NCBI GenBank assembly: GCA_964036295.1
Contig: OZ038467.1
Coordinates: 4,643,001 to 4,707,000 of the forward strand
Direction of reading: 5' to 3'
Length of the DNA stretch: 64,000 nucleotides
Origin: Plumapathes pennacea
Taxonomy: Eukaryota > Cnidaria > Anthozoa > Antipatharia > Myriopathidae
The notes under the pieces are model-generated. The model made no database searches. It had not been told where the DNA came from and was given only the letters and a program-made list of their open reading frames with translations. The position numbers were made by a program, and so were the translations under genes. Numbering within the stretch: position 1 is the first letter of the stretch; each line of letters begins with the position of its first letter. Positions 1 to 32,027 of the stretch are shown here, piece after piece.

Positions 1-3000
1 GTCTTGAATCTCGCAAAATATTCCTGCATTTTCACATTCTCGCATCACAAATTTGACAGCGTCTGCTAGATTCTCCATGTCAGATGGAGAAAGAGCCATT
101 CCTTTTTTCTTCGTGCACAAACTTCCAGAGGTGTAGGGATACCCGCGCCTGCATCCGTACCAGCGGACTCTACCATTAGCCTCCACCATTTTGTGTATGC
201 TGTGCTTGTTGGCAAACTCCACGTATTCTTCGTCTTTTACGTCACGAGTGTTGACGTTAAACATGACATCTGGGCAGGAAGCCGTGATTTTCCCAACTTT
301 GGTTTTCTTTAAGCGCCAAAAGAGGTCGTGAAACGCTCCATACTTCAAGCTGAGGAAAGACGTGTACAAAGTTACCAAGGGTACAGTTTTGAAGAAAAAC
401 CCCCACGCATGCATGGACATACCATAATAAGCCACTATCACAGTCGTGCGCCAGCAATGTGACGTTTCCGGATTATACAGCTGCCGGAACTGATCGAGAA
501 GCCAAAGGAATACTTTTCTGACGATTGTGCGTATTGATACTCCGCACAAAGCGTCTCTACAAGTCAGTCTTGTCTTTGGTCAGTATGATTATAGGTGTCC
601 TCCATCCAAGGATAGTCTTAGTCGCAACCCAGGGGTGGGGCACTCTTTTCAAGCCTTAAGTATAAAAATGGTATAGCAAAACGCAGCTTTTTGGTATTCT
701 AAAAGGTGGGTAAGAACAGCTGACCAAATGTAAATCGTATTGGTTTTAGTGGGTTTCTAAAACTCCTCCCTCAATTCAGACTTTGTGTTGAAAGAGTTTT
801 CTTGCGGCCTTTGTGATTCGAGGTGTAATTACTGTGGTAACCGCTCCGTATCACATATGTTTACTTAAACCAAATAGTTACTTACCTGCGGTCAAAGTCT
901 AAATCTTTCAGTGTACTTGTTTTTGCCATCCAGGGTCCCGTCAAAAAGTCACACACAATACATTCGTTGAACGAGTGGTAATATCCTCCCTTGTAAGTCG
1001 CCGTCCAATTTCTGAATGAAACCTGCTGACAGCCGATGTCCCAATGGCCTGTGAGATTGCGGTAACTCCCTCCAGCGATCGCCACTTGAGGATCATAACT
1101 CAACACTCGTACTAACCGCTCCAGATTGATATCGTCATCAAAATGAGTGAGGTGAGGTGCTATTAACACATACGGGGTTTCCACTTTCTCGACAAGTCTT
1201 TTCCACAGAGTTGACTGATAAACGCCATCTATAATTTCGTTCTCAAAGGTTATGTTCAAGTTAGATATGGAAGACTTCGTTGACTCTTCAATGGTTTTAT
1301 CCGTCGCTAAGATAACTCGAATTTGCGGGTAATACTTTGCCACGCCTTTCATAATTCCCACATAATTTTCCGCAGGTTTGGGAAGTTCTTGAGGCATACT
1401 TATCAAAACTGTGACAAGTTGGTGTATTGGAACAAAATGTACGCACTTTACACTCTCAAAACCTTTGCGAAAAAATGGATAGCCATAATTTAGCCGACCT
1501 CCAGCGTATTTTTCGGGACAAACTTCTTGTTTTTGCGCATCATCTGTTGCGTGAATGTTGCTCTTCGAGTGTGCAGTGGTGTCGTCCAACGTCTTCAATA
1601 CGCCAAGAATGTCTTGAATGTGCTGCCCAAGCTTGTGGTAAACTCCCGCCGAACCAGGGGCTAGGCTTCGCTGAGTTTCTATCAACTTTTGGGCATGTCG
1701 TCTCAAGCGTTGAACAAGACCTGGGTCAATTTTTGCTTTAGCGCACTGCAGTGATCTATAAAGATAAGAAAACGTTCCTGTGCCACACGCAGTTGATTTG
1801 CATACTGCCAACGCGGAGTATGTAAAATTATATGTGTAAAGAGAATAAAAATGCAAAGAGTAATATCTTTTAACAGTAAACAGCACATATTAGTTGGTAA
1901 CTATCTACTTGTATCACGAAACCCAATTTGTGACTTGAGATAAGCTCTTTGCATGGGAACTGGTACCAGCTTGAAAGGGAAGCTCTCCTGTCATAATTGA
2001 AAACCTTGGGAATTTTGTGCTGGCATGTAGCTACCCAAGAAAAACAAATGCATCTTCTCTGAAGACACACTGGTTGCTATAGAGCGACAAGAAACTGTCT
2101 TTTCAGGTTTGCGTATCCACTTCGAAAATTTAGGAGGAGGGGTGGTCAAGCATACTTCAAAAACGTAGGGGGAGGGGTGGTCTAACTCCAATGTATTCCT
2201 CGTTCTACTGAAAATGGTGGTCCAGCTTGACGCGTATCCGCGTTTCCACCGTTTTCTATGGGTACCCAAAAAACTGCGGGGTATCCTGTAGTTACTCCTC
2301 AGTTTTTTTTTTTTTTTTTTTTTTTTTTCATTTGGCTTTTGACGGCATTCCTCGGGGTTTAAACCATAGCATAAAGTCGAAATATGTGGCTTCGCGAAAA
2401 AGTTTGTGAGCTGTTGGAAACTATGCGAGGTTATAATTAGCCAGACTTGTGATTGACAGTATTATCTAATTAACATGACTATGAATAGGGGTGTGTAATC
2501 ATATCGTATTACAACTTTTACAGCGTGGCTTGCCCCGAGAGTTTTTGTGTGTGAGTTTGTAGTGAAATATCAATCGGAGAATAAATTAGGAAGCGTGTTC
2601 TATCACGTTTTCGAAAGAGCTCAAAAGACTTCCGGTTGGTTCCAGCTTTCAACTGGTATTTTGCGAATCGGTTTCGTTCATTTGCGAAGGTAAACATTTT
2701 ATTCTGCAAAGAAAGCTTTCAGTTTCTTTTGTTCGGCTACCGAACTGCTGCCCTGGGGTACCCCCCGCTTGAGGTGTATTGTACCAAACATGGCAGCCAA
2801 ATCCAAAATCGTTTCCACATATTTCAGATTCAGATTTCAGAATTCTTTATTGACAAAAGCTATGATACAGTTTTACAATAAATTATTACATAGCATAGAA
2901 CGTAACCTCGTCGAAATCAAAAGATATACAGGACAAGCTCATTTTAATTAAATAAATATTCCCGGCCCGCCAAACGGCCAAAAACGTGCAAAGCCACATC

Positions 3001-7666: not shown

Positions 7667-8038
7667 AACATGTAAGGATACTCATAACGATCCCATAACC
7701 TTTTATGATCACTGGAGAAACGGTAACTCCCTCTAAGTCAGACTATTTGCAGTAGTTCACGTATGAGACAGCTATTACACAACAGGCGCCTGCCTGTCGG
7801 CTATTATCTGATCCAGATGTTTGGTGAGTCATGTTTCACCAGTACCTGAGTTTGAAGTACTAATCTTCCATTCCGAAGTTAAACACACAGAATAGTTAAT
7901 TACCGTGTTCATGATCAAACGAACTACTGTGTCGGATTTGTAGGCGGGCTTCCGAAATCTAAAATAAATATGGTGACAACAGAGATGTGTAATTACATCC
8001 AGCTGGGACTCTTTAGTGTTACCACCCAAGTACATAAT
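7667..8038. other. Non-coding spacer
   Basis: About 370 bp between the foldback element and the first Helitron-like 5' end. No gene or repeat structure was recognised. Confidence 0.4.
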
Positions 8039-8329
8039 TGCTCGTGGCGAAGCCGACGAGCTTAGGATTGGAAAGCGTGTCTTCATCATCGTCATATTTT
8101 TATTGCTCGCGGGCGTGGCCCGTCGAGCTTAAAATCACACGGCGTGTCTTTATCGTCATGTTAGTTTTTTTGTGGGTTACGAATCTGCACACCATGATTG
8201 GTTCAGATTATCACGTGATATGCAATGACGTAATTGACTTCGTTAAACAACTCGATTGTGGCCAGTGAATTGCTCGGTACTTGTGTGTAAAAGTTAACTG
8301 CATTTAATCCAAACTCCACCGTTTGGGTT

Positions 8330-8965
8330 TGTGGAACACGCACTGATAAACTGGATGTTAGGGAACGATTTTGGCTTGCGTTCTTTAGTTCACCGCGGAA
8401 GCTTCGAGAATAGCCGTAAACAGATGTTTGATCAGATACCGCTGGGGAATTGCAAATATCTCTGTCGCCGCTAAATATTTAGTCCCGACGAAACTTTCAG
8501 TGGCGACACGAAATAGTTCTGGGAAGAAAACAGGCCGAAAACGGAAACCAAAGCTACGATGAGCTTTGGCCGCAAAACATCTGTACATGACATCTGTTGC
8601 CTCATAAAATTCTTCTGCTTATCGTACATTGCCTGTTGAAATGTTTCTTTCATTCGATCATGTAGCCTTTGTTTCGCAATGGTCATTGTATACCAGAAAT
8701 GAAAAATACACCGAAATAGTCCTGAGTATTAAGTTTGCAGTCGCAAATGGACTGAATACACTGTGAACAAAACCGCAATAATATTTTTAACATGTCTCGC
8801 GTTACATTCCTCGCTTTCAATTTTATATTTGTTACAAAGCACGAATACTCGAAAGCCTAATAGAAGTGAAACGCATTCAGTTAAAAAACAAGACAGACTA
8901 GTATTGAAACGAAGGCTGGATTAATCGTGGCCTCTGATTAGAATTAAGTGTTCGAGGTCAAACTG
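8330..8965. repeat. Shared internal block B, copy 1
   Basis: About 630 bp found again at 9,744-10,205 (partial), 10,266-10,945 and 25,066-25,720 in the same orientation. The minus strand contains a small open frame starting at 8686 (MTIAKQRLHDRMKET...) that all four copies keep for about 36 codons, one of them without the initiating ATG. Function unknown. Confidence 0.7.
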
Positions 8966-9743
8966 TCAAAGACAAGTCACGCATTACTCAGATTTACTCG
9001 GTGCGTCACCGTTTCGCTTCTAAGCTCAAAATACAGAGTCGCTCAACCTTTAAGAACCAAGTGTATGAGTGTTGTAATAATAAATTTATAGTTTAATCAT
9101 AAATATTACAATTTCCTCGAATGTGATTGGTTCATAAACCCCCCCGATTAATCATTAATTGGACACCTATTGTTCTGTAATCGGATACTTCTTTGTTCTG
9201 TAATCGGACAGTTGGCTTGACCAATCATAAGCAAGAGTGAAATTTAAATGCACCAATCAGCGTTACACTGATTTTCAGTGGAAAACTCGATTGCCGGTGT
9301 GAGTTTGTGGCTTCTCGAAAGGCGAATTTTATTAATTCTTGGACAACTTAACATGCAAGGAACAGTTTGTGGTCAATCAAAGAACGTGAACAGTCACTAG
9401 GTAACGAAAGAAGACAGGAAATTTTCGCCGGTCGGGCGCGTTTGTTTAGTTCACGACATCGCCAGCATGCTGTGCTATAGACACTCCGAAACTTACGGCT
9501 CGGCCAATGTCAATGAACGTCGTTAATTGCTCGTGGCGAAGCCGACGAGCTTAGGATTGGAAAGCGTGTCTTTATCATCGTCATATTTTTATTTGTATTT
9601 TTATTTTTTTTCTGGGTTACGAATCAGCACACGGTGATTGGTTCATATTTTCACGTGATTTATGATGACGTTTTGTCATCACATGACTTGCCGGGTGAGC
9701 AGTTTCGCCATTTTGAAGGAGATATGTGGGCGATAGAATTGTG

Positions 9744-10205
9744 CTTTGAGAATAGCCGTAAACAAATATTTGATGGTACCGCTGTCGCCGATAAATATTT
9801 AGTCCCGACGAAATTTTCTGTGGCGACACGAAATACTTTTGGGAAGATAACAGGGCGAAAGCAGAAACCAAAGCTACGGTGAGCTTTAGCCGTAAAACAA
9901 TGACGCTTTATGCTTTAGTCTGTACATGACATCTGTTGCCTCATAAAATTCTTCTGCGTATCGTACATTGCCTGTTGAAGTGTTTCTTTCATTCGATCAT
10001 GTAGCCTTTGTTTCGCAATGGTCAGTGAATACCAGAAATGAAAAATGCACCGAAATAATTCTGAGGATTGAGTTTGCAGTCACAAATGGACTGAACACAC
10101 TGTGAACAAAAGCGCAATAATATTGTAAACATCTCTCGTGTGACATTCCTCGCTGTCAATTTTATATTTGTTACAGAACACGAATACTCGAAAGCCTGAT
10201 AGAAA
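9744..10205. repeat. Shared internal block B, partial copy 2
   Basis: Partial copy inside H2. The small minus-strand frame is present, but its start codon has changed (the CAT seen in the other copies is lost). Confidence 0.6.
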
Positions 10206-10265
10206 AAACGTATTGAGTTAATAAAAGAAAACACATAAGTAGTGAAGCGAAAAAGTAGACTGCAT

Positions 10266-10945
10266 CCCATTCAAATTCAACGCCATTTGGCTCTGTGGAA
10301 TGCGCACGGATAAACTGGATTTTAGGAAAAGATTTTGGCTCGCGTTCACCGCACAAGCTTTGAGAATAGCCGTAAACAAATGTTTGATGGTACTTCTGGG
10401 GTATTGCAAATATCTCTGTCGCCGATAAGTATTTAGTCCCGACGAAACTTTCTGTGGCGACACGAAATACTTTTGGGAGGATAACAGGGCGAAAACAGAA
10501 ACCAAAGCTACGGTGAGCTTTAGCCGTAAAACAATGACGCTTTATGCTTTACTCTGTACATGACATCTGTTGCCTCATAAAATTCTTCTGCGTATCGTAC
10601 ATTGCCTGTTGAAGTGTTTCTTTCATTCGATCATGTAGTCTTTGTTTCGCAATGTTCATTAAATACCAGAAATGAAAAATACACCTAAATAATTCTGAGG
10701 ATTGAGTTTGCAGTCACAAATGGACTGAACACACTGTGAACAAAAGCGCAATAATATTGTAAACATCTCTCGTGTGACATTCCTCGCTTTCAATTTTATA
10801 TTTGTTACAGGGCACGAATACTCGAAAGCCTGATAGAAGAAACGTATTGAGTTAACAAAAGAAAACACATAAGTAGTGAAGCGAAGGCTGGATTAATCGT
10901 GGCCTCTGATTAGAAATATGAGTCAAGGTCAAACTGTCATAATCG
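10266..10945. repeat. Shared internal block B, copy 3
   Basis: Full-length copy inside H2, tandem to copy 2. It is very close to the copy at 25,066-25,720, including the ATTTAGTCCCGACGAAAC stretch. The small minus-strand ORF starts at 10,659. Confidence 0.65.
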
Positions 10946-11837
10946 ATTGTGCATAAAAAGATATGTCACGCATTCTCAAGATGCAGGGTCGCTCAACCTT
11001 TAAGAAGCAAGTGTACGAGTGTTGTAATAATAATTTTTAGTTTAATCAAGGTGTCAAAAGAGCAAGGTGTCAAAAGCCAAGTTCTCTATACTGTGTGATA
11101 TTTTTATGGTGAGAAATTGGAAGTCTCTCTTGGGAGTTCCGCTCTTGTCCCCTACTTTCCATTTTATATTCTGGTCTCGACCCAACTCACGCCGCGAGCT
11201 CACTGGCAAGGCCAGTCTAGTTCATTTCAAAATCATGGAAGAAACTTAACTTTGTTGTGATGGACTGTGATGGACAAACGCTCCTAGAAAATTAAGCCGT
11301 CAAGAAATCGGTAAGTTTGTAATTGCTGTGCCGACCCGCTAAGATACAGATTTTTTCAGTCTTGAGTATTTCCTTTGAATGCTTTGGAGTAAACTTCTGT
11401 GAAAAAAATAAACTAGTATTCTGAGTTTCAAAGTACCTGTTATGTTAAAAAATGTAAACCTGAAAAGTCGAAATAAACTGTCTTTCAATTTGTGAGTTCG
11501 TGATGGGTTTACTGATTTTTACTGAGTGTAAAGAACTTACACATTTTTTACTTTTACTTCAAAAATCCGCATTCAATTCAAATCATTGGGTAAATTAGCT
11601 TCTTCTTTCTCTCAAGTATTTTAAGTTGATATAACTGAGAGCTAGATAACTACGAACAAGCGGCGTGTTTACAAACGCCGAACCGTGTGTACGCGCGTGT
11701 TAGAATAGATCGGCGATGAAGTACTTCTTGATGCTTTGTTTTTATGTATAGTACAGGAGAAGACGCTGAAGCTATATGATCATTTCATTCTCATAAATTG
11801 TAATATTTATGATTAATTGGTAAGAGGACTTCGTGTC

Positions 11838-11943
11838 GTCCGATGTCGGTCTGTAATCATACTCGTGATTACGAAATCAGACTCCCGCGAAGCGCGGTCG
11901 TCCGATTTCGTAATCACTCGTATGATTACAGACCGAATCGGAC
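11838..11943. repeat. Short palindromic (foldback) insertion
   Basis: About 50-bp arms: GTCCGATGTCGGTCTGTAAT... pairs with ...ATTACAGACCGAATCGGAC, around a GC-rich centre. It lies in the 3' part of H1, immediately right of the TTAA element. It is probably a small MITE or a cruciform-forming repeat. Confidence 0.75.
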
Positions 11944-12179
11944 TCCACTCAGTCCTATTACCATTATTAATCAGGTTTCATTTAAGCAAGGTGTCAAAAG
12001 CCAAGTTCTCCGCGAGCTCACTGGCAACGCCAGTCTAGTTTTTATTATTTTTATTTTTATTTTTTTTCTGGGTTACGAATCAGCACACGGTGATTGGTTC
12101 ATATTTTCACGTGATTTATGATGACGTTTTGTCATCACATGACTTGCCGGGCGAGCAGTTTCGCCATTTTGAAGGAGAT

Positions 12180-14384
12180 ATGTGGGCGATGGAATTGTGC
12201 GTTGCTTGCCTTGGTTGGCTCTGTGGATTCTTTTATGGACCGCTCATCCTACTTACAAACGAATACGCCGGCTGCGGTAGACCCACACTAAATTTCATTG
12301 AGTGGTTTTGGCTTGGGTCGGTCCGTTCAGCCTCGAAAGCTTTGAAAAAAGCCGCAAATGAAGCAATGAATATATTAGTGAACATATCAAAGGACATATT
12401 AATGTTCTTATCAATGAACTGCATAGCTATGCACAACTGTACAGAAATGTACGAAGATCCTGACGTCCAGAACGTTGAGAACTTGAAGGAACAAGCTGAA
12501 CGAAGGGGTTCCAAATGCAAAGATCAGAACCCGAATGATATTAACGGCGAAGCAACTTCGATTCTTGGCCATCGCTTGATAGTGTATATGGAACTGTTTA
12601 GTATGAAGGTGAACTTAAAGGTACTTTGTATTCTTTTACTTTGTATTATTCTTGCTGATACAAGTAAAGCGTCAGAAAATCTGACTTTTCTTTGGAATCA
12701 ACGTTTCACTCTGTTGTGCATTTGTGTTGTTGTTGCGACATTTTGGCTCAGTGCCATGAAGATCAAACAGGCAGCAGATAACGTGGCATTATTATTTGAA
12801 AATTGGAACATGATTGAAGAAGAAGTGGTCGTTGGTAGATCTCGCTTTGAGCAGTTCTATTGTATTCCCAGTAATGTTTATGTGAAAGAAAATCGAACTC
12901 GTCCAAGACGAAGTCGTGAGCCAAGCCGAGTGCCTTTGAATGAACTTTCGCGCGTTCTGAACAAGGACAGGAAAAGCAGGCGACTATTACGAGAATACAT
13001 TTCAAAGAATGTCCCAAAGTCGTCAAAAGTTCATGATTATACCAGAGCTTACGTACTTCACAATGCTAATGCATTCCGTGAACGTGCGCGTAAACAACAT
13101 GGAAACAATAGAAAGCCACAGAAATGCAAAGAGAAAATTAGGATCAATAAACCATCGCTGCGAGAAAGCTATAAGTTCAAAAAGAAGTTTGTCAAAAGTA
13201 AACGAGGTGCTAAGGTACGTTTGTATTTTAGAATGACTTCAAGGACAAGCATTTCGAGACCAGCTGTGTTCAGAGATAGAAATCACAAAATCAATTACTA
13301 CGCGTTTTCTCTGTCAAGGGACATAGAAAAAAATCCCGGTCCTTCAGTAGTCGATCCAAACAAAACGATCATTGCACCGTACAGTCAAGGTAATGCTGCA
13401 ATATTTGGAGATAATGCTGGACGACAATGTGTAGCTATGTCTCTAGCAGCTGTCATATTTAACCACACGAATTTTATTTCTTTATCAGAGGATTTGAGCG
13501 AAATTATGAATGCTGGGAACAATCTGTATTCCACTCTTTCGCAATTATCTAAGGACTATTTTTTGCTGCTGACAGATCTACCTGGAATGGTCACAATATA
13601 TGAAACTCAGTATGAGCTGCAATACAGTGAAAGTTACGTGGGTAATTTGTTTGGAACTTGCTTTCCCATCGAAGGCTTTGCTTACTGTACAACACTGACT
13701 GGGGCTTTTAATTTATTGCTCAGACAGGATTTCAGCTGCTTTATTCTGACAATAGGCTGTAGTACTGTAGCTGTATTTTGTTTGTCAGGTGGCAGGTTCA
13801 AAGTATTTGATTCTCATAGTAGAGATAGTTTTGGCATGGAACATCCTGAAGGAAAATGTGTATTAATTGAACTTCGTTCAGTTGCCAATTTATTGGAATA
13901 TTTCCAGACTTTATATGTACACTTGCCTGCCATTACATTTGAAATTAAAGGAGTAAACATTTGTCTAACAGAAGACAGACACAACAGGCACAGATGTGAA
14001 GAACCTACAACTGTTCAGCAAAGAAGTAAAGCAATTATTTGCAAATGTAAGCAGTGCTGTGCAATTTCTTTCTATAGCATTTGTTTCTCTGTAATTAAAT
14101 CTTGCAGCTATTGGAATTCTGATACATTAAGTGCTGTAATTGAAAAAGGTAACACATTTTACAGGAAAATGAATGTTGACAAACACCTTGTGATAAGTGA
14201 TTTACCAAATAAACTAGAGATATGTGCAGGCACTGATGTTAATGTTGTCTTTACTGCTAAAAGACAAGGAGTTCTGTCTAAGGACAAAAGTTTAAGCAAG
14301 CAGAATCTTCATGAACTTATTACACAAAACAATAGGAATAATACTGGCTTTCTGTTGCCAGCTGACAAAATAACATGTGTATAA
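12180..14384 (+). CDS. Transposon-borne polyprotein: membrane/basic half, 2A stop-go peptide, cysteine-protease-like half
   Basis: The open frame extends upstream to 12,090 without an ATG. The first in-frame ATG is 12,180, giving 734 codons. Residues about 8-26, 145-160 and 175-193 are hydrophobic. Residues about 235-370 are very rich in Arg/Lys. A DIEKNPGP motif occupies residues 381-388; in known 2A peptides the ribosome skips the Gly-Pro bond, so two products of about 387 and 347 residues are expected. The second product begins PSVVDPNK and soon shows GRQCVAMSLAA (Cys417) and, 127 residues on, FKVFDSHSRD (Asp544, His546). That order and spacing suit a papain-fold protease or deubiquitinase of the C76/OTU-like kind. 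Helitron-type elements of animals are known to carry OTU-like proteases. The catalytic triad is inferred from motifs only; a late Cys-rich patch (about 618-650) is of unknown role. Confidence 0.7.
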   Translation: MWAMELCVACLGWLCGFFYGPLILLTNEYAGCGRPTLNFIEWFWLGSVRSASKALKKAANEAMNILVNISKDILMFLSMNCIAMHNCTEMYEDPDVQNVENLKEQAERRGSKCKDQNPNDINGEATSILGHRLIVYMELFSMKVNLKVLCILLLCIILADTSKASENLTFLWNQRFTLLCICVVVATFWLSAMKIKQAADNVALLFENWNMIEEEVVVGRSRFEQFYCIPSNVYVKENRTRPRRSREPSRVPLNELSRVLNKDRKSRRLLREYISKNVPKSSKVHDYTRAYVLHNANAFRERARKQHGNNRKPQKCKEKIRINKPSLRESYKFKKKFVKSKRGAKVRLYFRMTSRTSISRPAVFRDRNHKINYYAFSLSRDIEKNPGPSVVDPNKTIIAPYSQGNAAIFGDNAGRQCVAMSLAAVIFNHTNFISLSEDLSEIMNAGNNLYSTLSQLSKDYFLLLTDLPGMVTIYETQYELQYSESYVGNLFGTCFPIEGFAYCTTLTGAFNLLLRQDFSCFILTIGCSTVAVFCLSGGRFKVFDSHSRDSFGMEHPEGKCVLIELRSVANLLEYFQTLYVHLPAITFEIKGVNICLTEDRHNRHRCEEPTTVQQRSKAIICKCKQCCAISFYSICFSVIKSCSYWNSDTLSAVIEKGNTFYRKMNVDKHLVISDLPNKLEICAGTDVNVVFTAKRQGVLSKDKSLSKQNLHELITQNNRNNTGFLLPADKITCV
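13320..13343 (+). other. 2A ribosome-skipping motif (DIEKNPGP)
   Basis: The codons spell D-I-E-K-N-P-G-P, a full match to the D[V/I]ExNPGP consensus. They follow YYAFSLSR, a hydrophobic then basic stretch as usual upstream of active 2A sequences. The motif is in frame within the 734-codon ORF and sits at the border between its two dissimilar halves. Confidence 0.85.
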
Positions 14385-15157
14385 TTTATTGTTTCTTGAT
14401 ACAGTGTCTGATGAATAAATACAGACTGTACTGTGCTTGCACACCTCTATGGTTCTATCATTTCCATGCAGAAACTCTTGCATGAGGCAGAGTTCACTTC
14501 TTACATTCCTCACCTTCAATTTTATTTTTGTTACAAAGCACGAATACTTGAAAGCCTAATAAAAGAAACTCATTCAGTAAAAAGAAAACAGATTATTATT
14601 GGAGCAAAGGCTGGATTAATCGTGGCCTCTGATTAGAAATAAGTGCTCGAAGTCAAACTGTCAAAATCAGCTGTGCATAAATACAGTAAGTGTCGCAAGT
14701 CACTCTTCTCTTGCTGGCTGACCTATCACCCCTAAGCTCAAAATGCATCTCTTAAAATGAGTCTCTTAAACTTGAAGCAAATGTATGAGTGTTCTATGAA
14801 AATTTATAATTTTATTAGGTTTCCTTTGAGCAAGGTCTCAAAAACCAAGTTCTCTATGCTGTATAATATTTTTCTGGTGAGACTGAAACCCGATGGGGTA
14901 CTCCGCTATATCAGCCACATTAGGTATGTGCCGTATACATTTTTAAAGTTAGGTTATAGAAAATCAGATATCTTGGTCTGAAATAGGCTAAGCGTTTTCA
15001 GGACTGGGCAGCACCCACCCAAAATTATGATGAGTACCCCCCTCCCACCCCCCCCCCCCCCCTCCTGGGAGTCTCGCTCTTGTCCCTACTTTTAATGTTA
15101 GTTTATTCTCGTCTCGACCCAACTCACGCCACGAGCTCACTGGCAATACCAGTCTTG

Positions 15158-15616
15158 TTGCAGTAAAGTCTCTAATCAGATGAAGAATACTCTTTTGGAT
15201 AGTAATATGATGAGTTCGTTTGCTAAACAATGGCAGATTATCATCTGGACTGCAAATTTGATAAATTTGGGAATACGGACATTTCTAAAATGTGAATATA
15301 AACAATTTTGGCAGAGCGTACCCGTCAACACGTTTGATAATCGGTACATGTTAGTATAAGTAGCTAATTAGATCAATCTGTTCCTGTTTTCACTGATAGC
15401 TGCGACTCAGAGTTTTGCTTCATTTCATTTCTCTTCTTTTGTCGGGAAAAAAAAATTAAAGGATCTCTTTTCAACCATCGACATGTTACTCTCAACTTTC
15501 GACATAGACCCTCGACCAAAAGGTAAACTCTCCATTACATGCTAAATGGTTTGTTGATAAGATTTCGAGTTAAAAGCTTTGACTGTCAATTGAAAGAAAG
15601 AATTACATAAATTGAA
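15158..15616. other. Non-coding spacer
   Basis: AT-rich stretch between H3 and the right inverted-repeat arm. No gene or repeat recognised. Confidence 0.4.
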
Positions 15617-16607
15617 AGAATTACCTAAGACTCCTCATTTTCCATAAAAGTTACGTATGTTGTGTGATATGGAAAATCTGAGAACCGCGTAGCGATTTCT
15701 CTTTCCAAAAGTGTAATGTAGTTAATCCGTCTTTCTGTAGCCTATTGACTTCAAAGTTGGGCTCCGATAAAGAAAACAAATGCATCTAAAGGTCCAAGAA
15801 GCACGCTTGTTTAGCAAATAATACAATTATAGGCTGCTTTGTTTCTCGCGCACGGAGTTTGAATCATACATAAAAAGCTGATCTCTTCACCTTGAAGATG
15901 TCGTCCCCCTTTCGTGATCCACCTCATTGTCTCTAAGGATTAAAAATATCTTCAGTGAGTAAAAGTATACTGTGGACTACTCAAAAGGATGAATATTTCT
16001 TAGCTTACCCTTCAGTTTGCTCCGACATCGTGCACCATGCGATGATGAAACGAAAGACAGGCGTAATGAGCGGTCACGGGCTTCTAATGCACCCATTAAT
16101 CACGTGATTTGGCCGTCAGTAGGCGAAAATCTAACCTGATTGGCCAGCTGGCAACAATGACGCTGGCCAACAGATATTCTCTTTTCGTGTGGGGGCGGGT
16201 TTTTAAACATTTTACCCATTAACATCTGTAACTAGCGGATAAATCAGACAAATTATAGGTTTCTTTATCAGGCGAAAACCGAGAAAAAAATCTTCAAAAA
16301 TCCAGTAATTTGGTTTTGTTCTGATTAACTTCCCAATTTTTGCGTTCCCCTTTCCAGATTCCGGTTCCCAGTTCCCCGTTCGCGATTCGCGATTCCCGGT
16401 TCCCGGTTTCCCGGTTCCCAGGTTTCCGATTCCCGATTCCCGATTCCCGATTCCCGATTCCCGATTCCCGATTCCCGATTCCCGATTCCCGATTCCCGAT
16501 TCCCGGTTCCCGGTTCCCGGTTCCCGGTTCCCAGATTCCCGGTTCCCCGTTCCCGGTTCCCGGTTCCACGTTCCCGGTTCCCGGGTCCAGGTTTTAAACA
16601 TAGCCTA
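15617..16607 (-). repeat. Right arm of the very large inverted repeat
   Basis: Reverse complement of 4,565-5,436, with the same putative mini-exons (exon 1 at 16009-16028, exon 2 at 15891-15932, minus strand). It is longer than the left arm because its minisatellite is expanded. Confidence 0.8.
16345..16597. repeat. GATTCCC/GGTTCCC minisatellite
   Basis: About 35 tandem 6- to 8-bp units, switching from GATTCCC in the middle to GGTTCCC at the edges. Apparent proteins read from it are periodic translations of the repeat, not genes. Confidence 0.9.
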
Positions 16608-17585: not shown

Positions 17586-20500
17586 TTATTTTTCAACGTA
17601 GTCTTTCAGGTAGTCTGGTCTTCGTCTCTCCCGTCTTGGTCGGTTTGGGTTTGTTCTGTCTTGGTCTCCAGTCCCTGGTTCGCCTGTTGGTTCGGCTTGG
17701 TTCATCTCGGTGTCTGCCTTCATGTTTTCCAGTTCTTTCACAGGTGCATGTTCCTTTCCTGTGTCTCTGCATTCCTCCTGGGGTAGCTTATCAGGTTCGT
17801 CAGCGAGTGGTATGTCGGTTAAGGTTGCATCTCTGCGTTTGTCCTCCTCGGCAATTGTTGTTCGGTGCGGTTCCACTCTGGTCTCCTGTTCGTCTGTGGT
17901 GTTGATCACTGCATTTGCCAGTTTGAAGTGGCTTGCGTCCCGGCAAACTGTTCTCCCATCCGTGATTCGCCTGGCTGTTATCTGGGAACCTCGAATGTTG
18001 CTCACAGTGTAGAACACTGGTTCATATGGGGTGCTCCACTTGTTCTTCTTGGGCTGCTTGACGAGTACGTAGTCGCCTAGCACTAGGTTTCCTTCCTTTG
18101 TCTGTCTGCCTTCTCTGTTGTGTTTCATTTTGTCCTTGTACGCTGCATCTTTCTTGTTGATTCTCTCATCTTCTTCTGTGTTGTGCGTTTCCGGGTGGAT
18201 ATGGTCCAGTTTGGTCCTGATTGTTGCTCCTCTCATGCCTTCATATGGTGTGACTCCTGTGGCTGGGTGTGGTGTTGATCTGTATGCTATCAGCATGTCT
18301 TGAACAGCGTTTCGTCTCTCATGGCGGTCTTTGCCTTGTAGGTTGGCTATTTGCTCTGTCTTGTTCAGTGTCTGCATGAATCTCTCAGCTTCACCGTTTG
18401 CTCTGGGGTGCAGTGGTGTTATGCGGTGGTGTTGAAACCCTTCTTGGTTTGCGAATTCTTCAAATTCTTTCGAGTTGAATGGTGGTCCATTGTCACTTTC
18501 TAGTCTTCTGGGTGTGCCATAGGTAGCAAATGTGTGCTTCAGCTTCTCCTTGTTTATCTGGAAGCTGGTTGATGGTACAGTTTCTACCACTGGGTAGCGG
18601 GTACGCTTGTCGATTACAACTAGGTTGTAGTGGTTGTCTGGGTATGGTCCACCATGGTCAACGGCCACTGTGTCCCAAGGTCGGCTGGGGATGCTTGTCA
18701 CCTTGATGGGTTCTTCTCTTCTCTCTTTTGTGGCTACTTTGCATTCATAGCATTGGTCGATTGCTGTGTCGATCATGCTGTTCATGAATGGGAACCAGTA
18801 CTTCTCTCTCAGCATCTGCTTTGTCTTTGTTTTCCCAAGGTGTCCCAGGCTGTGTCCTAGTTTGACAACTTTCCTCTGAAGCGCTTCGGGTAGGACTATC
18901 CTTTGCTCTCGGAAGATCAGTCCTTCTGCTACTGACAGTTCTTGCTTCACATGCTGGTATGGTTCCATGTCTCGGTCTCGTTTGTGCTTCTCCCAGTCGC
19001 CTTTAGCAATCCTTCTTGCCAGCTTCTGCATCGTGCTGTCCTTCTGTGTTTCCTCTCTGATGCGCTCGATCACTACAGCATGTTCCGCATCCATTGTCCA
19101 TCTGACCATCTTCTCTGTGTTGTCATTCCCTGTTTCAGGTAGAGGGTGCCTGGAGAGATAGTCGAGAGGGTCTGCTTCATCCTTCCCTGGCTCATAGATT
19201 AATTCGTAGTCCACGTCCTGCATTTGCATTACCCATTTCTCTATTCTGGGTGGCATCTTGGTCTTTGCCTTATTGAAGAGGGGTAGTAGTGGTTTGTGAG
19301 CTGTCACTATCCTGAATCTTGGTGCTCCGAGGAGGTACCCTCTGAGTCTCTCTTTTGCCCACTTGATGGCCAGTGCATCCTTCTCTGTTTGGCTGTATCT
19401 CCTTTCTGTTTCAGTCATAGTTCGGCTGATGAAGTGCACTGGTTGTATCCCCTTCTCAGTCTGTTGCATCAGTGCCGCGGATAGGCCCTCGTTGAAGCTT
19501 GCTTCGGTGCGCAGAATGATTGGTTTCCCGGGGTCAAAGTAGGCCATGGTTCTGGAGTCTGAGAGGCTTTCCTTGATCTTCTCAAATGCCTGTTCCTCAC
19601 TTGTTCCCCATTGAAATTTAGTCTCTTTCCGGGTCAGCCTGTGGAGTGGTGCTGCTAGGGTTGCATAGTTGGGTATGAAGTTGTCCAGGTATCCGGCCAT
19701 CCCGAGGAAGCTACGGACGGCTTCCTTGCTCTCAGGGGCTCCACATTCTTTCACTGCTCGGACCTTGTCTGGCGATGGTTTCAGACCATCTTTGGTGAAG
19801 ATGTGCCCGAAGAATTCTATCTCTGTTCTTCCAAATTGACATTTCTCTCTGTTGAATGTGACGCCATAGTCCTTTGCTCGTTGGAGCACAGTTCTCAGCA
19901 CTTCCTTATGCTCTGCGTCATCTCTCCCTCCTAAGAGGATGTCGTCTCTCTGGTTCAGGCAATGGTGTATGTCTCCAAATACTCTAAACATTGCCTCATC
20001 AAAGACGTCCTGGGATGATTTTGCTCCAAATACCAGTCTTCTGGGTCTGTAGTTCCCCCATGGTGTGCTGAATGTTGCGACCTGTCTTGTCTCAGGGTCT
20101 AGGGTGAGTTGGTGGTATCCTTGTCTGAGGTCCAGCTTCGTGAATACTTTGCAATCATGTAAGTGGTATACAAAGTCCTCCACTTTCGGTGACTGGACGC
20201 ACCGGCTGCGCTTCATTGCTTTGTTTGGAATCCTCATGTCTATGATTGCCCTAATCATTTGTGGTTCAAGCTTCCCCTTCTCCACGTCGGTGAACTTGGG
20301 TTTGGGCTGCACGACTAGTGGTGAACACCATGTAATTGGTTCCCCGTCTGGGACTTTCTCAAAAATCTTCTGCTCAACTCCTTGCTCAAGCCATTGCTTC
20401 AGTGGTTTCTGTAGATGGTATGCCACGTGTCGCGGTTTCTGTGCTATGGGTAAGGCTTCTGGGTCCATTTCTAGCTTGACCTCTATTTCTTCCCCTGTGT

Positions 20501-22013
20501 TTTTGTCTCGGAGGCATCCAATGCCTTCAAACACTTCACTGAATTCGTTCAGGAGAGCTTCCAGGTTGTCATCTGCTGGCTTCACTGTTTTTATGCAAAG
20601 CTCATTGGTTTCTTTCAGTGTTCCCTCAGGTTCAATTTTGAGCATTCCAAGTTCAAGTAGTGTCTTCTTGCACAGGAGGGGTGGCGAATCCATTTTGCCT
20701 TGGATTACGAGAAACTTGCTCTTTGTTCCTCTGTTCCTGTTGCGAAGTGTCACTGGGAATTCTCCTTTCACAACCAAGTTGGATTGTAGTGTCTTTAGAG
20801 TGTCTGTACTTGGTTGGAGTTCTGTTATCTCATGTGATCGGTGCTTGAGAGCTTTGAATTGGTACTCATCCATGATGTTTGCGCTTGCTCCACTGTCTGG
20901 TTCCACATTTGCATCAATGTCCCCTATCCTGACCAGTACAGTGTCTTGGTTCGCACCTGATCTAACTTTCCTGGCGCGGTGTGTCATATGTTCCGCTGTC
21001 CGCTGGAGGTAGTCGTTGTCTGACTCACTGCTTGTCTCCTCTGCGTCCACGGTTCTCCTCACATGTCTCTTGTGCGTTCCTGTCGGTTGTCGATAGTCGG
21101 TTCTCTGCTTCTCCTGCGGTTTCTGTCCTCCCTTGCAGCATACAGCGAAATGGTTGTGTTTCCCGCATTTCAGACATTGTTTACCGTATGCTGGACAGTA
21201 CTGACCAGGTTTGTGGGCATCTGTCTTCCCACAGTAGTCACAGCTTTTCTCGTCTCGCCTTGCTTCTTGTCTGTTGTCGTATCTTCTGTGTTGTTTATCT
21301 TGTGGTCTCTTAGGTTGCCCCATGTGTCTTCCACTATTTCTTCTGCTGCCTCTTTGGTTTCGGTGTGGTTGTTGGTGTATTCGAGCAACCCTGTGCTCAT
21401 CTTTCATGTCCTTCACCTGCTGGCTGATATCCTCCTTTTGGCTGGCTTCCTCAATGAATTGGTCCAGATTCCACCTCTTTTGGATGCATTTCTTTATCAA
21501 GTCATTATCATGGATTGTTTGGATCAAGTGTTCCAGGATCCTATCGTTGATCTGGCCTCCGAATTCACAGTCTTTTGCTCTCTCTCTCATTCGGGCTGTA
21601 TATGCTACGATGCTTTCGTTGGTTTCCAGTCTCTGCTTGCTGAAGGTGAATCGTGCGTGATGTTTGTTTTTCTTCGGTAGAAAATGGTTTCCCAGTTTCC
21701 GTTTTAATTTCTCGTATTCATCTTCGTTTTCCACGGCCGCCGGATCTGGTAGATTGCGAGCCAGTTTCTTTACCTCTTGTCCTCCGTAGATCTTAAGGGC
21801 GCTTATCTTGTCCCGTACTTTGTCGATCTCAAAATATGTTGTTTCCTCTTCAAAGTCTTCCAGCCATTCCTGCCACGCTCTGCCGATTTCCAGGTGGTTG
21901 TCCGGGATTTTGAACGGTTCTATCTTCAGTGCTTTCCCGGTAGTTAATACTCGAATCTCTTTGAATTCTGCTGCTGCTTCTGCCTGTTCACCGTCGGCCA
22001 TGCTGCTGACCAC
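17586..22013 (-). CDS. Ty3/gypsy gag-pol polyprotein (1,475 aa)
   Basis: Domains in order: a gag-like region (1-250); a Cys/His zinc-knuckle region, including CxxC pairs at about 258-261 and CLKCGKHNHFAVCC at 280-293; an aspartic protease with DSGA near 373; and a reverse transcriptase (about 540-740) with FTKLDLRQGYHQ and NQRDDILLGG, in which the usual YxDD is replaced by QRDD. RNase H follows, then an integrase with an HHCC finger (GHSLGHLG ... CYEC), VAVDHGGPYP, LESDNGPPF and ANGEAERF, and a basic C-terminal tail. No frameshift or stop separates gag from pol. Overlapping plus-strand frames inside it are shadows. Confidence 0.95.
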   Translation of the reverse strand: MVSSMADGEQAEAAAEFKEIRVLTTGKALKIEPFKIPDNHLEIGRAWQEWLEDFEEETTYFEIDKVRDKISALKIYGGQEVKKLARNLPDPAAVENEDEYEKLKRKLGNHFLPKKNKHHARFTFSKQRLETNESIVAYTARMRERAKDCEFGGQINDRILEHLIQTIHDNDLIKKCIQKRWNLDQFIEEASQKEDISQQVKDMKDEHRVARIHQQPHRNQRGSRRNSGRHMGQPKRPQDKQHRRYDNRQEARRDEKSCDYCGKTDAHKPGQYCPAYGKQCLKCGKHNHFAVCCKGGQKPQEKQRTDYRQPTGTHKRHVRRTVDAEETSSESDNDYLQRTAEHMTHRARKVRSGANQDTVLVRIGDIDANVEPDSGASANIMDEYQFKALKHRSHEITELQPSTDTLKTLQSNLVVKGEFPVTLRNRNRGTKSKFLVIQGKMDSPPLLCKKTLLELGMLKIEPEGTLKETNELCIKTVKPADDNLEALLNEFSEVFEGIGCLRDKNTGEEIEVKLEMDPEALPIAQKPRHVAYHLQKPLKQWLEQGVEQKIFEKVPDGEPITWCSPLVVQPKPKFTDVEKGKLEPQMIRAIIDMRIPNKAMKRSRCVQSPKVEDFVYHLHDCKVFTKLDLRQGYHQLTLDPETRQVATFSTPWGNYRPRRLVFGAKSSQDVFDEAMFRVFGDIHHCLNQRDDILLGGRDDAEHKEVLRTVLQRAKDYGVTFNREKCQFGRTEIEFFGHIFTKDGLKPSPDKVRAVKECGAPESKEAVRSFLGMAGYLDNFIPNYATLAAPLHRLTRKETKFQWGTSEEQAFEKIKESLSDSRTMAYFDPGKPIILRTEASFNEGLSAALMQQTEKGIQPVHFISRTMTETERRYSQTEKDALAIKWAKERLRGYLLGAPRFRIVTAHKPLLPLFNKAKTKMPPRIEKWVMQMQDVDYELIYEPGKDEADPLDYLSRHPLPETGNDNTEKMVRWTMDAEHAVVIERIREETQKDSTMQKLARRIAKGDWEKHKRDRDMEPYQHVKQELSVAEGLIFREQRIVLPEALQRKVVKLGHSLGHLGKTKTKQMLREKYWFPFMNSMIDTAIDQCYECKVATKERREEPIKVTSIPSRPWDTVAVDHGGPYPDNHYNLVVIDKRTRYPVVETVPSTSFQINKEKLKHTFATYGTPRRLESDNGPPFNSKEFEEFANQEGFQHHRITPLHPRANGEAERFMQTLNKTEQIANLQGKDRHERRNAVQDMLIAYRSTPHPATGVTPYEGMRGATIRTKLDHIHPETHNTEEDERINKKDAAYKDKMKHNREGRQTKEGNLVLGDYVLVKQPKKNKWSTPYEPVFYTVSNIRGSQITARRITDGRTVCRDASHFKLANAVINTTDEQETRVEPHRTTIAEEDKRRDATLTDIPLADEPDKLPQEECRDTGKEHAPVKELENMKADTEMNQAEPTGEPGTGDQDRTNPNRPRRERRRPDYLKDYVEK

Positions 22014-27480: not shown

Positions 27481-30400
27481 TCAAGCACAATAGTCACTGA
27501 ACTGCATGTTGCCATCGGCTGGGTACTGGTCGAGACAGGCCGAGTGTGTCGGATTTTGGCATGTACTAAACTTTCCAGGGGAATAAAAGGCCCATCCTGA
27601 GCCGCGTCTTAAGGTTGACCAATGTTCCTGATGCTGATAGATCCCAGGCCCGTAACGGTTTCGAGCAAAGAGGCCTGGGTTTCGAGGATGGTTCACCCAT
27701 TCCCCTGCGAACAGTACTTTAGTTGGCCGTTGTCCGATGGCAGTGAGGATTAATGTGTCGAAAACGCTGTAGCCCCATAACTCAAGTCTCCAATTCGTGG
27801 TACGAAGGGCGAAATATCCTCCATGTGGAAGCCCATTGATTGTTTTGAAACTTCTCTTAGGATTAAGTCGATAGCCTGCTTGCGTGAATCTGCTCCGGAG
27901 TTTCTCGAGAGCTGAAAAGTCAGACGTTTGAAAAACTATGTCGGCGTCTCGCTCCCAAGGAAGGACGCCATTGAACTTCACCGCACCTGCAAAAACGAAG
28001 GAAGTGCTTAACTTTAATTCTTAATAATTTTAACAGGTAGAATACATATGAAGTTTGCTCTCTGCGGCCGAGTTTTGGTTTCCGTTGTCCTTAATATGAG
28101 GGTTCGTGTTATAGAGGTTCCTTTTAAATAGAATATCTATGGGTATTTTTCCTGGTCAAAAAGACTGTCCGTAATATAGGATGTGTCAGTATTATAGAGT
28201 TAGAGGTTTGACTGTACATTGCAGAAAAACCGCTTGCAATAAAGTTGTGAAGACTTCAACCGAATCACAAGTTTGACTTTCCTCACTCCAGCCTTCCTTA
28301 CTGATCCTTTGAAAACCAAAACCCATGATTTTTCTATACCCTCTGATACCTGAGATCCCTTCAGGCTGAACATCCCCATATAGCCAATCATAGGTAGTGC
28401 AACCCTCCCCCCTCCCATACTTCGAACAAATGGAGTCTGTCAAGGCTAAAAGTAGTACTGACTTCACTACGTACCCATCATAGTGCCGTCTTGAATCTCG
28501 CAAAATATTCCTGCATTTTCACATTCTCGCATGACAAATTTGACAGCGTCTGCTAGATTTTCCATGGCAGATGGTGAAAGACCAATTCCTTTTTTCTTCT
28601 GGCACAAACCTCCAGAGGTGTAGGGATACCCGCGCCTGCATCCGTACCAGCGGACTCTACCATTAGCCTCCACCATTTTGTGTATGCTGTGTTTGTTGGC
28701 AAACTCCACGTATTCTTCGTCTTTTACGTCACGAGTGTTGACGTTAAACATGACATCAGGACAGGAAGCGGTGATTTTCCCAACTTTGGTTTTCTTTAAG
28801 CGCCAAAAGAGGTCGTGAAACGCGCCGTACCTTAAGCTGAGGAAATACGTGTACAAAATTACCAAGGGTACAGTTTTGAAGAAAAAAACCCACGCATGCA
28901 TGGACATACCATAATAAGCCACTATCACCACAGGCGGCCCAAGCTGATGGACTATGTGACGTCACGGTTGGGTTTTATAAGCAAATGTATGGGAGATTTT
29001 AGTCGATCGATAACTCAAAAAGTATTGCGAGAATAAAGCTTAGACTTGCTAACCTTGTTGTGGTGGTGATTTTGTTGCTATAGCGATTTCAGCGTGCTCC
29101 GCTGATTTTTTCCTCTCTAACAGAAAGAATTTGAGAAACTTTTCTTGAGACAATCTGGATGCCAGATCGACCGAGTTGCCAGCATTAATTTTTTTTCCGT
29201 CTAAGCTTTATGCTCGCAATATTTTTCGAGTTATCGATCGACTAAAATCTCCCATACATTTGCTTATGAAACCCAACGTGACGTCACATAGTCCATCAGC
29301 TTGGGCCGCCTGTGCCATCACAGTCGTGCGCCAACACTCTGGCGCTTCCGGGTTATACAGCTGCTAGAACTGATCGAGAAGCCAAAGGAATACTTTTCTG
29401 ACGGTTGTGCGTATTGGTACTCCGCCTCTACAAGTCAGTCTTGTCCTTGATCAGTATGATTATAGGTATCCTCCATCCAAGGATAGTCTTAGTCGCAACC
29501 CAGTGGTGGGGGCACTCCATATAGTCCGATATAAAGGCTGAATCCGTCTGAAAGGGGCCCCTTTTCAAGCCTCAAGTATAAAAATGGTACAGCAAAACGA
29601 ACCAAAGTTTTATGGTATCCTAAAAGGTCAGTAAGAATGGTTGTTCAAATATAAATCGTATTGGCTTCATAGGGCTTCTAAAACTCCTCCTTCAATTGAG
29701 ACTTTGTGTTGAAAGAGTTTTCTTGCGGCCTTTGTGATCCGAGGTGTAATTACTGTGGTAGCCGCTTTGTATCACGTATGTTTAATTAAACCAAATAGTT
29801 ACTTACCTGCGGTCAAAGTCTAAATCTTTCAGTGTACTTGTTTTTGCCATCCAGGGTCCCGTCAAAAAGTCACACACAATACATTCGTTGAACGAGTGGT
29901 AATATCCTCCCTTGTAAGTCGCCGTCCAATTTCTGAATAAAACCTGCTGACAGCCGATGTCCCAGTGGCCTGTGAGATTGCGGTAACTCCCTCCAGCGAT
30001 CGCCACTTGAGGATCATAACTCAACACTCGTACTAACCGCTCCAGATTGATATCGTCATCAAAATGAGTGAGGTGAGGTGCTATTAGCACATACGGAGTT
30101 TTCACTTTCTCAACGAGTCTTTTCCACAGAGCTGACTGATTAGCGCTATCTATAATTTCGTTCTCAAAGGTTATTTTTAAGTTAGATATAGAAGACTTCG
30201 TCGACTCTTCAATGGTTTTATCCGTCGCCAAGATAACTCGAATTTGCGGGTAATACTTTGCCACGCCTTTCATAATTCCCACATAATTTTCCGCAGGTTT
30301 GGGAAGTTCTTGAGGCATACTTATCAAAACAGTGACAAGTTGGTGTATTGGAACAAAATTTACGCACTTTACACTCTCAAAACCTTTACGAAAAAATGGA

Positions 30401-32027
30401 TAGCCATAATTTAGCCGACCTCCAACGTATTTTTCGGGACAAACTTCTTGTTTTTGCGCATCATCTGTTGCGTGAATGTTGCTCTTCGAGTGTGCAGACT
30501 CGTTTTCAACGGTGGTGTCGTCCAACGTCTTTAACACGCCAAGGACGTCTTGAATGTGCTGCCCAAACTCGTGGTAAACTCCCGCCGAACCAGGGGCCAG
30601 GCTTCGCTGAGTTTCTATCAACTTTTGGGCATGTCGTCTCAAGCGTTGAACCAGATCAGGGTCAATTTTTGCTTTAGCGCACTGCAGTGATCTAAAAAGA
30701 TAAGCAAACAATCCTGTACCACAGTTTGAAGGGGTGGTCTAACTCGTTCTACTGAAGAGGGTGGTCTAGCTTGACTGCGTATCCGCGTATCCACCGTTTC
30801 CTAGGGGTAGTCCAAAAAACTGCGGGGTATTCTGTAGTTACTCCTCAAGTTTTTTTTTTTCTTTTTTTTTTTTTTGGCATTCCTCGGGGTTTAAACCATA
30901 GCATAAAGTCGACTTATGAGGGTTCGCGAAAAAGTTAGTGAGCTTAAAAGCCTCCCGGTTGGTTCCAGCTTTCAAATTGGTATTTTGCGAAAGGGTTTCG
31001 TTCATTTGCCAAAATAAAAATTTTATTCTGCAAAGAAAGCTTTCAGTTTCTTTTCGATTCGGCTACCGAACGGCTGCCCTGGGGTATCCCCCACGTGCGA
31101 TGTATTGTTCCAAACACGGCAGCCAAATCCGAAATCGTTTCCACATTATTTCAGATTGAGATTTCAGAATTCTTTATTGACACTATATTGACAAAAGCTA
31201 TAATACGATTTTACAATAAATATTATGTACATAGTATAGAACGTAAACTGAATACATATATGGTAATTGTGTGAGTGGTCGAGAGGAGAGCTTTCGTGTC
31301 GACCGCTCATATTCAAAAGATATACAGGACAAGCTCATTCAAATAAATCAAATAAATATTCCACGGCCTAAAACGTACAAAGCCACATCAAGTAATCCAG
31401 AAATAGCCACGAAACCGTCGCGGTAGCTTTCACCCGTGTTGCAGATCGCATCGAACTCCGCCGATCGAAATATCGCGCGTGAAAGTGCGTCGAAAATCCA
31501 GGTTGGCCTTAGCTAAGAGAATATTTATTTTTTACTTCTTTTCTGACGAGTATTTTCAGTTTTGAGGAGGTTCCGTTGGTTCAGATTTCAAATTGGTATT
31601 TCGTTCATTTGCTAAACGGTTTCGTTTCGTTTCGCAAAATACCATAAGCCTTGCACGACTTTTCACGTACTAAATTGTTTGTTATACGACAAATGAAGCA
31701 GCCAAACGTTTCTATCCGAGCGCAAAATGGATAAAAAGATGACGCGTTCGTAAACATAAACCAGGTGATCTGGTTTCTGACGAGTGCAATACCCTCCCAT
31801 CTTTGCACTCGTTTTGGCCTTTATTTGCTCTCGAAAATGTGAAGTCGTGTAAACAAATAAGAATACTGTTTGGTCAGTGCATTAGTCGTTACTTACGGGT
31901 CTCTAGTTTGCGGGAGCTCCTCGCGTCTCTTTATAGTTCTCGGCCACACCATTGTGAAGATAACGACTGTCAGGGTAAAAGTCGTACCAATTAACAAATA
32001 CTTCCAGAGAAAACGCAGGGTAAACAT
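27481..32027 (-). CDS. FKRP-like transferase, copy 2 (complete, 627 aa)
   Basis: Exons 31897-32027, 29807-30691, 28475-28836 and 27481-27986 join in frame with GT-AG introns and end at TGA (27481-27483). The N-terminus is a type II signal anchor (about residues 8-30) with a basic start, pointing to the Golgi or ER. Residues about 45-340 form a GT-A-like stem region. Residues 341-459 include VRWYGC, as in the region before the FKRP catalytic domain. A LicD/FKRP nucleotidyltransferase-like core follows, with GAVKFNGVLPWERDADIVF (Asp473 and Asp475 as likely metal ligands; the first acidic position of the usual DxDxD is Glu471). FKRP transfers ribitol phosphate onto dystroglycan glycans; the acceptor here cannot be told from sequence. 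Versus copy 1, exon 2 has five extra codons (VENES) and exon 1 lacks one. A MITE sits in intron 2. Confidence 0.85.
28929..29314. mobile_element. MITE with ~115-bp TIRs in intron 2 of FKRP-like copy 2
   Basis: Ends CACAGGCGGCCCAAGCTGAT and reverse complement; the arms match over about 115 bp, including GACGTCAC and TCGATCGA. The corresponding intron of copy 1 (about 432-450) reads straight through CCACTATCACAGTCGTGCG. Copy 2 has ATCAC on both sides of the insertion (28924-28928 and 29317-29321). So the insertion postdates the gene duplication, or one copy lost it precisely. Confidence 0.9.

Follow-up and report, generated by a model that had tools for sequence, protein, structure and literature searches.

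A predicted 2A (StopGo) site between a basic protein and a viral-tegument-like deubiquitinase in a deleted Helentron of Plumapathes pennacea

What does a single long reading frame encode when a 2A, or StopGo, octapeptide lies between a hydrophobic and basic half and a half resembling cysteine proteases, and is such a frame a gene of its own or a piece of a larger one? The question is raised by a locus of Plumapathes pennacea that we analyzed within a stretch of 64,000 nucleotides (assembly GCA_964036295.1, contig OZ038467.1, positions 4,643,001 to 4,707,000 of the forward strand), hereafter the window; coordinates are those of the window, and features are on the plus strand unless marked (-). 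Positions 12180-14384 form one ORF of 734 amino acids with a stop-free translation. By hydropathy, its upstream half contains hydrophobic stretches starting at about residues 6, 137 and 174, with a further stretch from residue 517 that falls within the protease. The three upstream segments belong to a fast-evolving N-terminal part (residues 1-206, 12180-12797), followed by a basic region (12864-13340), in which residues 229-387 include 47 K/R versus 12 D/E. The octapeptide DIEKNPGP occupies 13320-13343, so that 387 residues precede the predicted break between Gly and Pro. A Pfam search of the upstream half gave no family above the cut-off, and a search of viral contigs with the 734-residue protein gave no relative.

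The downstream half was compared with known families and structures. In the 734-residue protein, only one Pfam family exceeded its cut-off, namely PF04843 (Herpes_teg_N; E 4.5e-7, 30.1 bits compared to a cut-off of 25), which marks a first domain at 13386-13829. The best solved structure was 8ADD (E 3.2e-5 with the single sequence, 9e-8 with a six-sequence profile), followed in the profile search by a herpes large tegument protein (E 0.0065). The motifs GRQC and FDSH correspond in the alignment to NRQC and FDSH of 8ADD, which places the predicted catalytic residues at C417 (13428-13430) and at D544 and H546 (13809-13817). The structure 8ADD is DrT1-VTD2 from a zebrafish Helitron, and deubiquitinases of this viral-tegument-like kind (VTD) have been described in Helentrons of vertebrates, insects, cnidarians and molluscs (PMC9741609). 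Taken together, the PF04843 and 8ADD matches and the aligned motifs identify the protease, at the level of homology, as a VTD deubiquitinase (PF04843, C76-like) of an already known kind, which would be expected to cleave ubiquitin. AlphaFold models (354 and 185 residues, built from 7 and 6 sequences) had mean pLDDT values of 36.4 and 34.9; because both are of low confidence, assignment of the papain-like fold rests on sequence homology. A reading made earlier from the letters of this stretch (the sequence-only reading) had described a 734-residue ORF with a hydrophobic and basic upstream half, a perfect DIEKNPGP and a papain-type deubiquitinase with a Cys...Asp-x-His set. The first description was borne out by translation, hydropathy and charge counts and the second by an exact match, whereas the third can now be narrowed to a putative enzyme of the C76, or herpes tegument, kind.

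The core octapeptide D(V/I)ExNPGP is present in the window ORF. A tolerant 2A pattern allowing up to two mismatches matched the window once, with zero mismatches, compared to 0.09 matches expected from shuffles. Across the genome (290 Mb in 24 contigs), the exact pattern matched 125 times versus once for the reversed-pattern control, and DIEKNPGP accounted for 66 of 100 of these sites, as counted from the 100 listed. It should be noted that the residue before Asp is Arg in the window and Lys or Asn in its relatives, and the usual Gly is absent; in six OTU-linked sites (L039, L040, L044, L046, L048, L058), this position is Gly. Since Arg rather than Gly precedes Asp, skipping may be weak or absent at the window site. 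This opens the possibility that the motif does not function in the VTD families, so that the frame yields a single fused polyprotein or one separated otherwise, for example, by the deubiquitinase itself; some OTU relatives without any 2A also speak for such a state. Conversely, Gly at this position is a preference and not a requirement, and the upstream contexts of active 2A sequences vary widely (PMC12846837). Diverged families also keep the core while the free places change (DVETNPGP in L049, DIELNPGP in L053), although these sites were found by the motif. We consider inactivity unlikely, but it is the alternative that has to be taken most seriously. An alignment of 26 rows, picked from 69 matches for completeness and diversity and not at random, retained DIEKNPGP in 25 rows (DIEKNPSP in the remaining one), which says little about upkeep of the 2A because most of the rows are near-identical copies.

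We fetched 20 of the 125 sites, in 18 of which the octapeptide differs from DIEKNPGP, and read their frames by eye. The 2A precedes a VTD in four (L049, L050, L053, L056) and an OTU or OTU remnants in six (L039, L040, L044, L046, L048, L058), and in the three of the latter that were tested (L040, L048, L058) OTU was above the Pfam cut-off. Four others (L041, L045, L047, L054) are members of a broken family in which LAN precedes the 2A, and the context of two (L051, L052) is ambiguous. At L042, L043, L055 and L057, a 2A appears by eye to stand directly before a non-LTR-type endonuclease, apparently the known use of 2A in non-LTR elements, in this genome too. The common core of these sites is partly circular because the motif was used to find them. 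The VTD of L053 has about 40% identity to the window family and scores 19.1 bits, under the Pfam cut-off of 25. A third 2A-carrying type is represented by L086 (C7:5423701-5425801), apparently an open member of the LAN family, in which DVETNPGP leads into two OTU domains (E 2.3e-29) and Helitron_like_N lies about 2.7 kb further along the same strand (C7:5422151); its upstream 116 residues showed no similarity to the upstream part of the window protein.

The basic protein connects the two kinds of deubiquitinase. The basic region before the window 2A is homologous to that before the OTU in L059 and L060 (BLASTP E 2e-15 and 5e-10). With the octapeptide removed, the scores were 130 and 93 compared to shuffle maxima of 67 and 68, and none of 1000 shuffles reached either score; for L053, the 79 available upstream residues showed no similarity to the window basic region. 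Homology of the basic regions before VTD and before OTU indicates that the basic protein with its 2A occurs with either deubiquitinase. The genome has a 2A directly ahead of the deubiquitinase in its VTD Helentrons as well as in OTU Helentrons of two kinds. On C1-C9, a strict 2A was found just upstream of 59 of the 100 VTD matches that reach the start of the domain, in a census queried with a diverged VTD protein and PF14214 and hence weaker than one with PF04843, and just upstream of 10 of 46 such OTU matches. Many VTD matches without a 2A lie in open frames of about 100-220 residues and appear to form a fragment family. Many VTD fragments were also seen in open frames of 148 residues without a strict 2A upstream (e.g., C3:7926448, C8:8887633, C1:39383847), apparently a separate derivative family.

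A further 20 OTU places were picked by homology after several with a known 2A had been excluded, so that this sample leans away from 2A. A 2A was present in L061-L064 and, as NIETNPGP, in L069; L075 had NPGL, L065 and L066 had only NPGP or KPGP remnants, and L071 had none. Eight places (L067, L068, L070, L072, L073, L076, L078, L079) had open frames from a basic protein of the EPSR type into OTU, with Gly-Gly-Met before the OTU in the contexts RLNGGM, LRGGM, LKGGM and FIGGM. Gly-Gly-Met was found in L074, L077 and L080 too, where the upstream frames are broken, and among five further OTU places in L083-L085, the other two (L081, L082) being unrelated sequence. In an alignment of 16 rows, the Met of all eight Gly-Gly-Met rows falls in the column of the second Pro of NPGP in the eight 2A rows; the linker is gap-rich, so that the alignment is soft there, and by eye the eight rows represent about three families. 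Viral deubiquitinases are noted to cut polyproteins at di-glycine sites (PMC9741609), and the correspondence suggests that Gly-Gly-Met may be a second way of separating the same proteins. The plain alternative is that this Met is an internal start. A more general proposal, which we put forward tentatively and rate as rather improbable, is that Helentrons free the N-terminal basic protein in two interchangeable ways, by StopGo in VTD and some OTU elements, and by a cut of their own deubiquitinase at Gly-Gly-Met in OTU elements without 2A. The break would then fall at the same place, either between NPG and P or between a ubiquitin-tail-like Gly-Gly and Met, and the deubiquitinase would also be the polyprotein protease, as in some viruses. 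If this is the case, the window 2A is one solution to a general need of such elements.

Whether the window ORF stands alone can be decided from its relatives in the genome. A search of the genome gave at least 69 matches (61 of 2104 candidates scored), several of them in long frames. The full-length copy on C2 measures 10,820 bp, has both ends and contains one frame of 2,948 residues, the first quarter of which is the sequence of the window ORF. Residues 644-2948 of this frame match Helitron_like_N (E 2e-26), PIF1 (E 9.6e-25) and DUF6570 (E 1.5e-23) in Pfam and contain lysine-rich repeats matching DUF3106, and the C-terminus is endonuclease-like (Exo_endo_phos, E 0.091, 13.0 bits, below the Pfam cut-off of 24.5). 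The window copy and the full-length copy match at 98.7% up to base 14356 and diverge after it. Because the full-length match stops at this base, the window frame ends inside a second VTD-like domain, the later half of which is found in the parent; this domain, of which the window copy keeps the N-terminal half (13860-14356), is probably inactive and was called by eye, without a tool match, from comparison with the 2,948-residue frame. Beyond it, the window copy has 0.8 kb of other 3' sequence (14357-15159), which supplies residues 727-734 and the stop codon and is unmatched in full-length relatives except for short common pieces, such as the last ~34 bp. Judging from these alignments, the window copy is a non-autonomous Helentron that is truncated on its 5' side and carries an internal deletion. 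The sequence-only reading had proposed a self-standing two-protein module without Rep/helicase. The lack of Rep and helicase holds for the window copy but not for its full-length relatives in the same genome, which have both; the ORF is what the deletion has left of the front of a Rep/helicase ORF and stops within the second VTD-like domain, and a self-standing gene of this kind is ruled out by the full-length copies.

The short form itself is abundant, and this raises the alternative that selection maintains it as a module of two proteins, the basic/membrane protein and the deubiquitinase, aiding Helentrons in trans or acting against host defence. Its 3' part is present at 40 or more scored places, 35 of which are identical over 124 bp (places are counted here by the 3' part and not by the ORF). 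Several short copies have an intact 734-residue frame, and both halves are complete to the end of the first VTD domain (VTD1). The copies are so alike, however, that the intact frames follow from their youth, and short and long copies differ at two sites in their majority sequences. The frame of the short form also ends with half of the second VTD-like domain and eight unrelated residues. We therefore compared the observed substitutions to those expected under the same mutation spectrum: in 14 short copies pooled, there were 24 synonymous, 70 nonsynonymous and 5 stop changes versus 27.4, 67.1 and 4.5 expected, with 3 further stop-codon changes left unclassed. Other groupings of short copies gave N/S values of 1.19 (13 copies) and 1.14 (14 copies, including L037), and the long copies also look neutral, at 0.98 and 0.93 (7 or 8 copies). 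As these counts match the neutral expectation, with stops at the expected number, the copies change neutrally after insertion, which is usual for transposon copies. The open frame of the short copies is inherited, not maintained, and these copies appear to be decaying. The selected short module was rejected on these substitution counts, which makes it very unlikely, and no evidence was found for a counter-defence role of the short copy, which the sequence-only reading had entertained.

Between lineages, the pattern is that of purifying selection on parts of the frame. We compared the window copy to four diverged copies (C1, L033, C10 and C6), which represent only three lineages since C1 and L033 are close to each other. 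In this order, dN/dS was 0.17, 0.18, 0.31 and 0.31 for VTD1 and 0.24, 0.27, 0.37 and 0.26 for the basic region (whole span 0.24-0.37); it was 0.35-0.40 for the half of the second VTD-like domain. For residues 1-206, the values were 0.91, 0.84, 0.66 and 0.43, indicative of weak constraint; indels in this part mostly keep the frame, with two frame-breaking ones in C6, and the part is probably coding but fast-evolving. The C1-L033 pair gave a VTD1 dN/dS of 0.46, on 7 and 4 changes. Thus, the protease is constrained between full-length lineages (dN/dS 0.17-0.31). Neutral dN/dS in other copies, the outcome that would have counted against the sequence-only reading, was observed within the short copies but not between the full-length lineages.

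The ends of the element are of the Helentron type. Alignment with other copies and comparison of terminal sequences place the window copy, a short form of ~3.1 kb, at about 12041 to 15159, with its own 5' terminus (the first ~60 bp of the element) missing. Abutting the truncated 5' side, head-to-tail, is the 3' end of another Helentron (12014-12040), and a copy on C5 has a junction of the same kind. Across copies, the 5' ends read TTGCTCGTGGCGAAGCCGACGAGC and the 3' ends CGCCACGAGCTCACTGGCAATNCCAGTCTTGTT, with small variation; the copies start with TTGC and finish with GTT, and six complete short copies measure 3,159-3,209 bp. In complete short copies, 10-bp subterminal inverted repeats lie inside both ends (GCTCGTGGCG and CGCCACGAGC), the 5' one of which is lost from the window copy. 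At the 3' terminus of the window copy (15133-15159), a short hairpin is preceded by CGCCACGAGC, the inverted repeat of the 5' GCTCGTGGCG. The 5' hairpin folds at -8.5 kcal/mol (z -3.39); the 3' hairpin is weak, at -4.2 kcal/mol (z -1.75), and is reached by 14 of 200 shuffles. These features agree with the Helentron structure described in PMC4067079. The ends, together with Rep/helicase in the full-length kin, support the proposal of a Helitron-like element. That the locus is instead a host gene which has captured a 2A and a protease, as the long single ORF might suggest, has next to no probability given the many copies with shared ends at unrelated places, common termini with inverted repeats and hairpins, and Rep/helicase in full-length kin. 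Upstream, copy alignment and terminal sequences reveal a shorter, related Helentron derivative whose ends are of the same type (9527-11222), and Helentron derivatives are clustered head-to-tail over 8038-15159 (5' ends at 8038 and 9527; 3' ends at 11222, 12040 and 15159). The window also contains a tandem array of about 33 copies of the heptamer CCGGTTC (16361-16593), a frame of 1,475 residues with reverse transcriptase, RNase H and integrase domains, i.e., an LTR-retrotransposon-type polyprotein (17586-22013, (-)), and two frames that each match the FKRP_N stem domain below threshold (882-1886 (-) and 29803-30711 (-)).

The reading that we favor, with a probability of roughly 0.8, is that the window copy is a non-autonomous Helentron derived by internal deletion from a VTD Helentron whose frame is split by a 2A. 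The parental frame would consist of an N-terminal hydrophobic/basic protein, the 2A and one large protein comprising the VTD deubiquitinase, the second VTD-like domain, basic repeats, Rep, PIF1 helicase and an endonuclease-like C-terminus. For this parent we infer skipping activity, deubiquitinase activity and a role in transposition, and for the short copies mobilisation in trans: by StopGo the parent would make two proteins, the second led by the deubiquitinase and carrying Rep and helicase, and the short copies would be moved by products supplied in trans. To our knowledge, deubiquitinases in Helentrons have no settled role. Recurrence of the 2A before the unrelated VTD and OTU suggests a need for the N-terminal protein to be freed and for the deubiquitinase to front the Rep/helicase protein. 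The window copy itself is ordinary. Our literature search found no 2A in Helitrons or Helentrons, but such cases may be in print already, in the survey of 2A sequences across eukaryotes by Rao et al. (2025, Cell Reports); unless they are, the finding would add DNA transposons to the retrotransposons among the mobile elements with 2A.

We regard the element as a VTD or OTU Helentron of known kind and claim the linked 2A as a variant, not as a new kind. The closest known systems are the VTD Helentrons DrT1 and DrT2 of zebrafish (Erven et al. 2022, PMC9741609), which likewise have a VTD with catalytic Cys and Asp-x-His in the Helentron ORF; as here, DrT1 has two VTD domains, some Helentrons have OTU, and cnidarians and molluscs are among the hosts. 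The main text of that paper does not mention skipping, StopGo, self-cleavage or NPGP, whereas the elements described here have a 2A-linked basic protein and an amplified deleted form. Non-autonomous Helentrons (DINE-1, HINE; Thomas et al. 2014, PMC4067079) are alike in the subterminal inverted repeats, the 3' palindrome, the T-rich flanks and the ends common with an autonomous partner; however, DINE-1 encodes no protein, whereas the window derivative keeps a 734-residue frame and has most of its 3' 0.8 kb from elsewhere. In APE-type non-LTR elements (Odon et al. 2013, cited through PMC4981915), a 2A similarly separates an upstream protein from an enzyme-bearing one, but these are retrotransposons, whereas here the 2A belongs to a rolling-circle DNA element and is followed by a deubiquitinase. 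The 2A-like signal sequences of sea urchin NLRs (Roulston et al. 2016, PMC4981915) are another case from an animal genome in which a 2A occurs together with a hydrophobic N-terminal part; these NLRs are host immune genes with an N-terminal 2A-like signal of 26 residues, compared to the 387 residues that precede the predicted break in the window ORF.
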